Virus record (IMG/VR): IMGVR_UViG_3300031977_000822
Location: 1 to 46,642 of that record
Source of the DNA: a virus
Length of the DNA: 46,642 nt
Direction: 5' to 3' (one strand)
In this document: piece by piece, positions 27,858-31,008 of the stretch
How the letters are laid out: every line of letters starts with the position of its first letter
Position numbering within the stretch: the stretch's first letter is position 1
Translations under genes and position numbers: made by a program
Notes under the pieces: generated by a model
The model's input: only the letters and a program-made list of their open reading frames with translations
Database searches by the model: none
Told to the model about the DNA's origin: nothing

Positions 27858-28082
27858 TTATCTTTTAGCGTTATCTCTTAACTGGTAGATGTAATGTTTG
27901 TAATTAGATTGTAAAGGGCGTGTGTTTGGGTACATTAAAAGATATTCCATAATGATTTTATTTTTTTCAGGGTTATTATTTCTTACAAACCATTGAGATT
28001 CATAGTCATTAATAACCCCTACTGTATATTTAAAATTTTGCACCTCGCAATTTATATCAAGGTTTAATTTTAATTGTTCCAT
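27858..28082 (-). CDS. Small early protein (74 aa)
   Basis: Starts within the end of the 28070 membrane gene. Polar alpha/beta protein (LKLNLDINCEVQNFKYTVGV, YESQWFVRNNNPEKNKIIME), with LMYPNTRPLQSNYKHYIYQL near the end. Unknown function. Confidence 0.72.
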   Translation of the reverse strand: MEQLKLNLDINCEVQNFKYTVGVINDYESQWFVRNNNPEKNKIIMEYLLMYPNTRPLQSNYKHYIYQLRDNAKR

Positions 28083-28192
28083 AGTATTAAAAATATTATC
28101 ATTATAGAAATTGCAAAAAGATATTTATTAAAATGTTTTCTAAATAGTCTTTTTATTTTTCTATTGTCTATTGAATAACCATATATAATCAT
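28070..28192 (-). CDS. Small membrane protein (40 aa)
   Basis: ATG 28190-28192 shares a base with the preceding stop. Basic N-terminal half (SIDNRKIKRLFRKHFNKY) and a C-terminal transmembrane helix (LFAISIMIIFLILW). Part of a run of four tiny membrane genes. Unknown function. Confidence 0.58.
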   Translation of the reverse strand: MIIYGYSIDNRKIKRLFRKHFNKYLFAISIMIIFLILWNN

Positions 28193-28305
28193 TATTTTTT
28201 ATCCTTATATTTGCTGTTTATCTCATCAATTATTTGTTGTGTACCAATAGCCAAATAAATTCCTAGTGATACAATCAAAGTAATTCCTATAATTAAATAA
28301 ATCAT
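28192..28305 (-). CDS. Small membrane protein (37 aa)
   Basis: ATGA overlap with the upstream 25-aa gene. N-terminal transmembrane helix (MIYLIIGITLIVSLGIYLAI) then a polar, charged tail (GTQQIIDEINSKYKDKK). Topology opposite to its downstream neighbour. Confidence 0.6.
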   Translation of the reverse strand: MIYLIIGITLIVSLGIYLAIGTQQIIDEINSKYKDKK

Positions 28306-28379
28306 TTTAGAAATAACCCAAAACCAATTACAGCAGATAATATTAATACAATTAAAAACTGTTCAAATGGCATATACAT
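28302..28379 (-). CDS. Membrane micropeptide (25 aa)
   Basis: ATG at 28377-28379 with GAGG 8 bases upstream; stop overlaps the next ATG by 4 bases. One hydrophobic helix (FEQFLIVLILSAVIGFGLFL). Start by ribosome site, coding by coupling. Confidence 0.56.
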   Translation of the reverse strand: MYMPFEQFLIVLILSAVIGFGLFLK

Positions 28380-28400
28380 TTTTTTACCTCGCTTTTTTGT

Positions 28401-28478
28401 TTAAAGATTATTGAAAAAATAGTTTATAAGAATAATTAAAACTATAATTCCAAAACTTAATAATAATAAATCAATCAT
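28401..28478 (-). CDS. Membrane micropeptide (25 aa)
   Basis: First gene after the 28488-28516 promoter; ATG at 28476-28478, about 10 bases from the -10, so nearly leaderless with no ribosome site. One hydrophobic helix (IDLLLLSFGIIVLIILINYF). Followed by a 21-base gap to the next microgene. Confidence 0.48.
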   Translation of the reverse strand: MIDLLLLSFGIIVLIILINYFFNNL

Positions 28479-28487
28479 ACAACTATT

Positions 28488-28516
28488 AATATACATGCAA
28501 AAATTGCATAGGTCAA
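28488..28516 (-). promoter_or_regulatory. First leftward early promoter
   Basis: Minus strand: TTGACC (28511-28516), 17-base spacer, TATATT (28488-28493). It starts the leftward early block. The spacer holds the palindrome at 28495-28509, a natural repressor site. Confidence 0.7.
28495..28509. promoter_or_regulatory. Palindromic operator candidate in a promoter spacer
   Basis: ATGCAA-AAA-TTGCAT, a perfect 6-bp inverted repeat exactly between the -35 and -10 of the first early promoter. A protein bound here would block RNA polymerase. A partial copy (CATGCAAAA) lies at 28525-28533. Confidence 0.6.
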
Positions 28517-28572
28517 ATGGTTAGCCATGCAAAAAACACATGACACAATTCGTTCACATTCTGTTCTATTTC

Positions 28573-28586
28573 TTAACAGCTGTTAA
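28573..28586. promoter_or_regulatory. Perfect 14-bp palindrome between divergent promoters
   Basis: TTAACAGCTGTTAA is its own reverse complement. It lies 21 bases upstream of the -35 of the rightward promoter at 28607 and between the two divergent promoters. Likely dimeric-regulator site. Confidence 0.55.
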
Positions 28587-28606
28587 CAATTTATTTTTTT
28601 ATAGAT

Positions 28607-28635
28607 TTGACACTTAATTAAAATTAGTTTAATAG
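28607..28635 (+). promoter_or_regulatory. Rightward promoter of the 28,680 gene
   Basis: TTGACA (28607-28612), 17-base spacer, weak -10 TAATAG (28630-28635). The perfect -35 and the weak -10 suggest that an activator may be needed. Confidence 0.55.
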
Positions 28636-28679
28636 AATAAGTATATGCTTAATTTTAACAATAAACTGAAAGGCAAAAA

Positions 28680-29504
28680 ATGAGCAACAAAACTGAAACA
28701 ATGATAAAAGAAATTGAAAAACAAGAAAAACAAAATTTCTTACAATCATTAAAAGCTAATGAAAAATTAAAAAGTAATTTATCAATAGCTTTAAAATCTA
28801 CTAATAACTTAATGAACAATACGCTTCCAAAATTGGCTAGTTCATTAACGGCTTTTATTAGTGAATTTAATCAAAAAAATAAAGGTAATACTAAAACAAG
28901 TGATAATGATATTATTCAAGTTAAAGCTTTAAGAGAATATTGTTACAGCTTAGTTAATTATGACCGAAAAGATGCTGTTAATACAGCTTTCGAAATGGTT
29001 GTAACAAGGGCAATTAGATTGTCTTTAATGGCTACAGACTACAAAAACGAATTTAATATTGATGAAAAATCAAATAAAATTTTTGTAATGTCTAAAGTTG
29101 CTACACCTTTAATTGTAGAAAAATTAGAAGGTCAAAAAGCTAGCAATAGAAAAAAACCAAATACATCAACGGAATTAGTTGAAGTAAATACTGGAATTAT
29201 TGATAGAGTATACAAAACAAAATACCCTACCAAAGTTTCAAGTAGACAACCAAAAACTAAAGACGCTAAAGATGAAATGACATTTAAGGAATTATCAAAA
29301 CAATTCTTAAAAATGTTTAATAAAATTAGCGTATTTGCTAAAACTAAAAATGCTGAGTTCATAGATCATATTGACGAAAAATCTATGGAAACTTTAGGAA
29401 ATATTAAAGCAAGTTTTGACGCTGAATATAACAATATTAGAAATACATATGATAAATATGAAATTGATATTGATGGTGAAAAACTAGTTAAAAAAGTAGC
29501 TTAA
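28680..29504 (+). CDS. Unknown early protein, sole rightward gene of the control region (274 aa)
   Basis: AAAGG 5-6 bases before the ATG. Very Lys-rich and helical. N-terminal coiled coil (MIKEIEKQEKQNFLQSLKAN), a middle domain (KALREYCYSLVNYDRKDAVN, AFEMVVTRAIRLSLMATDY), a basic linker (YPTKVSSRQPKTKDAKDEM) and a C-terminal helical acidic part. It has its own promoter and terminator and lies opposite the leftward early genes, as a phage regulator or DNA-binding protein would. No known family. Confidence 0.82.
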   Translation: MSNKTETMIKEIEKQEKQNFLQSLKANEKLKSNLSIALKSTNNLMNNTLPKLASSLTAFISEFNQKNKGNTKTSDNDIIQVKALREYCYSLVNYDRKDAVNTAFEMVVTRAIRLSLMATDYKNEFNIDEKSNKIFVMSKVATPLIVEKLEGQKASNRKKPNTSTELVEVNTGIIDRVYKTKYPTKVSSRQPKTKDAKDEMTFKELSKQFLKMFNKISVFAKTKNAEFIDHIDEKSMETLGNIKASFDAEYNNIRNTYDKYEIDIDGEKLVKKVA

Positions 29505-29510
29505 CTCTTT

Positions 29511-29527
29511 GGGCTATACTTTAGCCC
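29511..29527 (+). other. Hairpin after the 28,680 gene
   Basis: GGGCTA (29511-29516) pairs with TAGCCC (29522-29527) around a 5-base loop, 7 bases after the stop. No U-tract follows, so it probably protects the 3' end ahead of the terminator. Confidence 0.55.
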
Positions 29528-29537
29528 TTACCCCAAT

Positions 29538-29571
29538 AGCCCCCTTGATTAATTTCTAGGGGGCTTTTTTT
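29538..29571 (+). terminator. Strong rightward terminator
   Basis: AGCCCCC (29538-29544) / GGGGGCT (29559-29565) with a 14-base loop, then seven T residues to 29571. Ends the 28,680 transcript before the gene-free region. Confidence 0.88.
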
Positions 29572-29708
29572 ATGCCCTGAATTTACCCTGAGTAGTTACC
29601 AAAGTTACACTAGATACAAAATTTGATACCACCTTGATTACATACAACTGTTAACTAAAAAAACTTTTAATATTACTCTAATTACCCTTGACTATATTTG
29701 TATAACTA

Positions 29709-29750
29709 CACTTGAATTCCACTTGAAAAACTCCAAAGCTTTCACTTGAA
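29709..29750 (+). repeat. Three phased CACTTGAA repeats
   Basis: Exact CACTTGAA at 29709-29716, 29720-29727 and 29743-29750. Starts are 11 and 23 bases apart, close to one and two helical turns, so bound proteins would face the same side of the DNA. Confidence 0.65.
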
Positions 29751-29756
29751 AACACT

Positions 29757-29787
29757 AGGGGGGTACGCAGGCGACACAGGGGGGTAC
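29757..29787 (+). repeat. Two AGGGGGGTAC repeats 21 bases apart
   Basis: AGGGGGGTAC at 29757-29766 and 29778-29787, two helical turns apart and directly after the CACTTGAA repeats. These G-runs stand out in AT-rich DNA. Confidence 0.65.
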
Positions 29788-29942
29788 TGTATACATACAT
29801 ATGCACTCACCATAAAATATACAAAAGCCATGTTAACCACCTTGGGGCTAGATTTATTCTATCCCTATGTAGCTCCTGACGATACCTTAAGGGAGAATCT
29901 TGGGTAACCTTTAAATAGATACTAAGACCCCCCTGCGTACCC
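29761..29942. repeat. 11-bp inverted repeat GGGTACGCAGG
   Basis: GGGTACGCAGG at 29761-29771 and its reverse complement CCTGCGTACCC at 29932-29942, 160 bases apart. The pair could form a long-range stem in a leftward RNA, or be two protein sites brought together by looping. Confidence 0.6.
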
Positions 29943-29943
29943 T

Positions 29944-30000
29944 TAATGGTACATTATACACCTATATAAGGATTTTGTCAATAGGTAATTTGTACCATTA
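29944..30000. promoter_or_regulatory. 10-bp inverted repeat flanking a promoter (operator pair)
   Basis: TAATGGTACA (29944-29953) and its exact reverse complement TGTACCATTA (29991-30000), with the whole leftward promoter between them. The left half covers the predicted start site. Confidence 0.65.
29953..29981 (-). promoter_or_regulatory. Perfect-consensus leftward promoter into a gene-free region
   Basis: Minus strand: TTGACA (29976-29981), 17-base spacer, TATAAT (29953-29958). Transcription would run towards 29,538 and the antisense strand of the 28,680 gene, where no convincing leftward gene exists. Suggests a regulatory RNA. Confidence 0.82.
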
Positions 30001-30031
30001 TGTCACACCCAAATTATTTTTATAGAAACCC

Positions 30032-30059
30032 TTGACATTTTGTTAAATATTGTTATAAT
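30032..30059 (+). promoter_or_regulatory. Main rightward late promoter
   Basis: TTGACA (30032-30037), 16-base spacer, TATAAT (30054-30059): both hexamers perfect. It reads into the terminase, head and tail genes with a leader of about 115 bases. It is back to back with the leftward promoter at 29953. Confidence 0.85.
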
Positions 30060-30146
30060 AGATAATCATGGGTCTATCAAAGGGATCACACACATTATCA
30101 CGGTAAATATACACACCAGGATTATCACTGATACACCCATCTAATA

Positions 30147-30160
30147 TAGGCTGCAGCCTA
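30147..30160. promoter_or_regulatory. 14-bp palindrome in the late leader
   Basis: TAGGCTGCAGCCTA is a perfect palindrome in the leader of the late transcript, about 85 bases after the start and 22 before ATG 30182. Possible operator or RNA stem. Two ATTATCAC copies (30094-30101, 30121-30128) lie before it. Confidence 0.5.
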
Positions 30161-30181
30161 ATAACAACACACATATGAAAT

Positions 30182-30568
30182 ATGGCAAAATATCAATCAA
30201 ACTTAACTCAAGAAGAAAAAGACGAAATTATTGCTAAGTCTAGGGAAACTACTAGGAAGAAATTTAAAGATTTCTTTACTCGTAAAAGAAAAATTCCTGG
30301 ATCTAGAGAAGATAAATCAAAAGCTGATGTTGAAAAGGATTTACCTAGAGGTACTCCTGCTCCTTCACAAATGGAGGATTACAAACCTTCTAAGAAAAAA
30401 CAAACCTTTAGTGAAGCTTTTAAAAAAGCTAGAATGGAAGGTGTTGACGAATTTTTATTTGGTGGCAAAAAATATGCCGCTTTAACTAAGGAAGAACTAG
30501 GATCAAAAAGTCTTAGAGAATACTTAAATGAAAAACGTCAACGAGATAAAGAAGCAGATCAAGAATAA
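30182..30568 (+). CDS. Small basic protein before the terminase (128 aa)
   Basis: First gene of the late transcript; no clear ribosome site. Basic, with TTRKKFKDFFTRKRKIPGSR and a C-terminal motif FSEAFKKARMEGVDEFLFGG-KKY (F..AF..AR..G...F...GK.Y), which recurs in many marine phage proteins. Unknown function; perhaps a packaging or virion protein. Confidence 0.8.
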   Translation: MAKYQSNLTQEEKDEIIAKSRETTRKKFKDFFTRKRKIPGSREDKSKADVEKDLPRGTPAPSQMEDYKPSKKKQTFSEAFKKARMEGVDEFLFGGKKYAALTKEELGSKSLREYLNEKRQRDKEADQE

Positions 30569-30597
30569 AGATTTCTGGGAAATCATTAAAGAGGTAA

Positions 30598-31008
30598 ATG
30601 CTAGGCATGGATTCAGCTATTCTTCCGAGTCAAAAAAAAGAACTTACCGAAATGCAGGAAAAGTTTCTAGACGCATTATTCGGTCAAGCAAAAGGAAATC
30701 CAAAGATAGCAGGTGAGATAGCAGGTTATTCTGAACATAGTTATCCTAAAGTATTACAAAATTTAAAATCAGAAATAACAGCTAGAGCAGAAAACTATTT
30801 AGCTGTACATTCTGCAAAAGCTGCAACTAAAATGGTTGATATGCTAGATGAAGATGGAACAACACCACATGCTAACATTAGAATGGAAGCAGCAAAACAG
30901 ATATTAGATAGAATAGGCATAGTCAAAAAGGATCAACTAGATATTAATATGAAAGCTATGCATGGAATTTTTATATTACCTGCAAAAGATGGAACCGATA
31001 AAGATTAA
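30598..31008 (+). CDS. Terminase small subunit (136 aa)
   Basis: GAGG 4 bases before ATG 30598. An N-terminal helix-turn-helix like those of small terminases: LTEMQEKFLDALFGQAKGNP, KIAGEIAGYSEHSYPKVLQN. Then a helical oligomerisation part (AAKQILDRIGIVKKDQ). Position upstream of the large subunit agrees. Recognises phage DNA to start packaging. Overlaps the next gene by 20 bases. Confidence 0.83.
   Translation: MLGMDSAILPSQKKELTEMQEKFLDALFGQAKGNPKIAGEIAGYSEHSYPKVLQNLKSEITARAENYLAVHSAKAATKMVDMLDEDGTTPHANIRMEAAKQILDRIGIVKKDQLDINMKAMHGIFILPAKDGTDKD

Follow-up and report, generated by a model that had tools for sequence, protein, structure and literature searches.

What is made from a perfect leftward promoter that reads into a stretch without evident genes? 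The question is raised by a virus contig from IMG/VR, 46,642 bases in total, analysed over its full length (the window). The initial annotation placed TTGACA-N17-TATAAT at 29953-29981, noted some 400 gene-free bases downstream on the same strand, and proposed a regulatory or antisense RNA. The promoter is indeed exact, lies on the minus strand and matches the consensus perfectly, while the longest ORFs behind it (42, 32 and 25 aa) are not convincing. The noncoding part of the proposal is supported, as the promoter and about 200 bp are conserved with no conserved frame. The antisense part is not, as neighbour families vary and the element ends well before the neighbour.

By its TerL, which is related to those of HTVC033P, HMO-2011 and the CRP phages, the record is an HMO-2011-type phage. 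The identity is 79% with Pelagibacter phage HTVC033P; for Puniceispirillum phage HMO-2011 it is 53.5%. The host is probably one of the ocean's commonest bacteria (SAR11). Genes of the record run leftward from ~13 to 28 kb and the structural genes run rightward from 30.2 kb on. Annotated HTVC033P carries its replication genes on one arm and the terminase and structural genes on the other; from the comparison with these arms, the leftward block is presumed to be early and the rightward block late. The leftward element, for which a role in the early/late switch was considered initially, is found between the two modules.

The window holds five perfect TTGACA-N15..19-TATAAT sites against 0.19 expected from dinucleotide shuffles. 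Two of them, the leftward promoter and the divergent one of the terminase operon, stand back to back (Table 1), and a promoter is found 30-52 bp from the leftward -35 at 94 of 101 nonredundant loci. Among 39 distinct elements selected through TerS the leftward promoter matches at 12 of 12 positions in 37 and at 11 of 12 in 2. When all 146 distinct copies are taken, a set that is partly promoter-selected, 144 have a spacer of 17 and 144 carry GTG ahead of the -10. Note that a perfect 10-bp inverted repeat, TAATGGTACA / TGTACCATTA (29944-29953 and 29991-30000), brackets the leftward promoter and is a possible operator.

Table 1. Features of the region between the leftward and rightward gene modules (window positions).
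Feature	Position	Strand	Basis or remark
Convergent neighbour gene (274 aa; no family match above the cut-off)	28680-29504	+	outside the conserved RNA
Leftward sigma-70 promoter TTGACA-N17-TATAAT, GTG before -10	29953-29981	-	sequence match and conservation
Predicted ~200-nt ncRNA	29749-29946	-	start inferred from promoter, end from first U-tract; conserved-block alignments
Closing helix, 5' arm, GGGTACGCAGG in RNA	29932-29942	-	inverted repeat and fold
Closing helix, 3' arm, CCTGCGTACCC in RNA	29761-29771	-	inverted repeat and fold; CTGCGTAYCC block itself conserved
Local hairpin GGGATAGA/TCTAGCCC	29845-29865	-	clade-specific
RNA core GTTAACA-N12-ATTTT	29814-29837	-	(nearly) invariant in 24-sequence alignment
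Divergent perfect promoter of terminase (late) operon	30032-30059	+	sequence match; absent from the initial annotation
Late-mRNA leader element	about 30066-30140	+	helix and conserved internal loop; strong covariation
Leader helix arms GGGTCTATCA / TGATACACCC	30070-30079 / 30129-30138	+	covariation
Leader internal loop, AAGGGA.. and GGATTATCAC	from 30080 and 30119-30128	+	conserved
Second leader hairpin or palindrome TAGGCTGCAGCCTA (GGCTGCAGCC)	30147-30160	+	varies: GGCTCGAGCC, TTGGTACCAA or CCTAGG-loop hairpins in relatives

Relatives of the element were gathered by several routes. Starting from the 28,680 protein, 14 loci were obtained through homologues and 27 through a profile search; of 390 TerS relatives in IMG/VR, 80 were kept and 79 used (L046-L124). 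A scan with the core pattern found at least 119 stretches, and requiring the promoter gave at least 180 copies, of which at least 131 are unique and at least 101 nonredundant. The element is kept in more than 100 related phages. Conservation of core and promoter was counted solely on loci chosen through TerS, because the pattern scan and the promoter filter preselect both; some of these loci are also among the search-model sequences. Where TerS-selected loci offer 1300 b or more of upstream sequence, the promoter and the following ~200 bp are present without exception (35 of 35 distinct loci). In intergenic alignments the same segment is conserved and much of the remainder is not. The blocks GAAT, GTT.AC, ATTTT and CTGCG.TA.CC are (nearly) invariant in a 24-sequence alignment, HTVC033P deviating in the last. 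The nhmmer value of the window element is 5.1e-37, with a model that includes the window's own sequence. The model also matches the more distantly related Pelagibacter phages HTVC115P (7.4e-11), HTVC103P and HTVC104P (both 4e-6), whose TerL proteins are only 47-48% identical. It has no match below E = 2 in the whole record of Roseobacter phage CRP-738 or in bases 1-52771 of the 55282 (95%) of HMO-2011. Judging from this small sample with two non-SAR11 genomes, the element may be special to SAR11 phages. The strict core pattern has 0 occurrences in genome_contigs, which covers 84,980 bacterial and archaeal species (one genome each), among which looser relatives are possible, and Megablast of the region against phages gave no match. 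HTVC033P has no annotated feature beneath the element. No Rfam 15 family (4227 families, gathering score) was detected in window positions 28000-31000 or in the relatives L017, L014, L010, L069, L208, L144, L035, L030, L247 and L229.

Such a conserved, protein-less stretch behind a perfect promoter is probably an unrecognised RNA gene. The favoured explanation, held with slightly better than even confidence, is an unannotated stand-alone ncRNA gene from which host polymerase would make an RNA of ~200 nt acting in trans. As is typical of a stand-alone sRNA, the element has its own promoter and no co-directional gene downstream. A short peptide gene in its place, 29 aa from 29831 with AAGGTGG ahead, has good ribosome-site spacing in the window, but its start context recurs in 1 of 100 copies, and over 39 codons no frame is free of stops in more than 28 of the 100, so that this reading is barely credible. 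Counted modulo 3, the start-to-core distances are spread over all three classes (44, 36 and 20 of 100 copies); the median length of the longest ATG ORF is 14 aa, and the search for a conserved small protein gene across the 100 copies, which the initial annotation had named as evidence against an RNA, found none. A leader of a leftward gene was also considered and is ruled out, since, in every one of the 51 listed copies that carry no 28,680-like gene, the nearest downstream ORF has the convergent orientation (ORFs of at least 110 aa, several families). That the RNA is antisense to the 28,680 gene, as initially read, would suit the convergent geometry of the window; it is nevertheless very improbable. 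Among the 125 distinct copies listed, the far side of the element has a 28,680-like gene in 45, lacks it despite room in 43, where other families are present, and is cut by a short contig in 37. Moreover, the conserved part stops ~245 b short of the stop codon of the gene. Because the neighbour family varies, the conserved unit is the element rather than its pairing with one particular neighbour, and the mark of a cis-antisense RNA, an overlap with one sense gene that is kept across relatives, was not found. The 28,680 gene itself ends in a terminator-like GC hairpin followed by T7 (29535-29570); the stems at the same place differ in relatives.

Two further readings were considered. The main rival, an unlikely one, is a replication-origin element in which the strong leftward transcript would open the DNA or prime synthesis (R-loop or primer RNA), the block being the origin. 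The minimum of cumulative GC skew at ~28-31 kb, the position between leftward and rightward gene modules and G-runs near the leftward promoter agree with it, but gene direction explains the skew equally well; since skew tracks gene direction, the origin and gene-layout readings are inseparable by skew. Origin motifs did not come to light in the course of the other analyses. A DNA site, for instance for packaging (cos/pac) beside terS, with an incidental promoter, is decidedly unlikely. The element constantly adjoins TerS: among the 125 distinct copies listed, 116 have it in divergent orientation on the promoter side, 9 have too short a contig and 0 lack it; the antisense strand folds as well as the sense strand, and contig ends are frequent nearby. 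However, these ends are scattered without a sharp terminus, and a bare DNA site has no need of a promoter kept at 12/12 in 37/39 elements and at 11/12 in 2/39. A genome terminus within the element was rejected on the same scatter of contig ends.

In the ncRNA gene reading, host sigma-70 RNA polymerase would initiate at the consensus promoter and the ~200-nt RNA would terminate in U-rich sequence ahead of the convergent neighbour. In the window its two ends can pair. The RNA would act in trans, either by base pairing or by binding of a host or phage factor, and would probably be made from early infection on, because the promoter is readable without a phage factor.

The call of an RNA gene is based on the retention of the promoter and on the conservation of the block behind it, rather than on a proven fold. 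The secondary-structure evidence is mixed. The 11-bp partners 29761-29771 and 29932-29942, singled out initially as a potential long-range stem, are a perfect inverted repeat and join the RNA ends in the fold, but covariation of the paired ends across relatives is not significant. The local stem GGGATAGA/TCTAGCCC is likewise real, at ~29845-29865 instead of the 29850-29875 first given. Consensus folds in four clades are better than column shuffles (z -1.9 to -3.8), the antisense strand doing equally well. Single-sequence folds have a median z of -0.08 (n=93; -1.68 and -1.37 in two folds of the window), with no stability gain over shuffles. Mutual information gave no excess of Watson-Crick pairs in the leftward RNA, and arm-swap tests of two end-pairing G/C-run helices were not significant (z -1.8 and -0.5), a control region giving z -3.4. 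A core hairpin scores 0.97 versus at most 0.66 in eight shuffles; 135 of 5000 permutations are as good, which lends it weak support. U-runs are missing from the RNA body and peak 80-110 nt past the core; 58 of 93 copies have one where the end is expected, later windows being equally U-rich (43, 60 and 44 of 93). Local terminator hairpins are few, with 23 of 93 copies versus 16 expected. The 3' third of the RNA is hypervariable in relatives (e.g. L208, L144, L212) and looks swapped as cassettes; some clades carry C-runs there, others G-runs.

The rightward promoter is followed by a leader in the late mRNA for which the evidence of RNA structure is strong, and stronger than for the leftward element. 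Its internal loop, AA-N-GGAC... / GG.CATCAC shut by GAC/GTC, is (nearly) invariant, and the fold in the window has z -2.16. The helix sequence varies freely yet remains paired: own versus swapped arms give z -15.3 for 53 nonredundant leaders, a set that included two mis-set leaders, L001 and L067. From 66 distinct arm pairs, 21 that are gapless and have more than 3 differences over 24 positions were kept, with L001 excluded as a copy of the window; they pair at 9.1 of 10 positions versus 5.4 when shuffled (maximum 7.4 in 5000). In a MAFFT alignment of 22 leaders, with the structure assigned by hand, double-sided changes are found in 5 of 5 counted outer pairs. The covariation score of the 22 leaders is 0.399, versus 0.168 shuffled and at most 0.094 slid. 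HTVC103P is apparently without the leader, from reading of its sequence. The leader has no Rfam 15 match in the stretches searched, and no signal of pairing between it and the leftward RNA was seen (median z -0.26, n=89).

In put RNA systems, RNA polymerase reads through terminators by way of its beta' zinc-binding domain. HK022 put is described, in the passages covered, as a ~70-nt cis element that has two stem-loops and directly follows a strong promoter in the early operons of this lambdoid phage (PMC9378689). The rightward leader is also a structured RNA of ~70 nt with two stem-loops right behind a strong promoter and is likened to put, as described there, by this layout; it differs in that it belongs to the late operon of a marine phage, whereas put in that description serves the early operons of a lambdoid phage. 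A bolder and quite unlikely reading is that the early-late gap is an RNA control module of SAR11 phages. The leader would be a new kind of cis antiterminator, put-like in action, with which the host polymerase could transcribe the long late operon in unmodified form; the leftward RNA would be a trans partner tuning the transcription of host or phage right from the first minutes. Should the leader prove to be an antiterminator, a mechanism best known from HK022 would be broadened.

The OOP RNA of phage lambda runs leftward and near the origin. It is a short phage RNA with its own promoter and antisense to cII mRNA according to the part of the source used (PMC12197685). The leftward element likewise has a promoter of its own and is predicted to give a short RNA; in contrast to OOP as outlined there, this RNA would end before it reaches the neighbour, a gene that is not conserved. 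Cyanophage S-PM2, a lytic marine phage, makes the intergenic CfrI RNA of ~225 nt antisense to psbA, as summarized in the same part of that source (PMC12197685). Length, intergenic place and marine phage are similar here, but CfrI has psbA as sense partner in that summary while the leftward element has no conserved one. Marine myophages carry glutamine riboswitches (PMC9004378, in the section covered), which are comparable as structured RNAs that exert control in phages whose marine hosts are streamlined bacteria; unlike the riboswitches of that section, neither element here matches Rfam in the stretches searched. The covered portion of the HMO-2011-type phage paper makes no mention of noncoding, promoter or intergenic features. 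The portions covered of the open-licence literature on pelagiphage and marine-phage ncRNA, pelagiphage riboswitches and HTVC033P report neither element; an earlier report elsewhere is possible.

If these assignments are true, the ncRNA gene and the late-leader RNA would be core regulators overlooked by gene-only annotation. Both would offer a handle on late-gene control in SAR11 phages, whose promoters are, as far as seen, of host type. A further block, AAATTTTGTA at 29610-29627 (minus strand), is nearly invariant in a 13-sequence intergenic alignment, and an AATTTTGTA is also present in HTVC115P.
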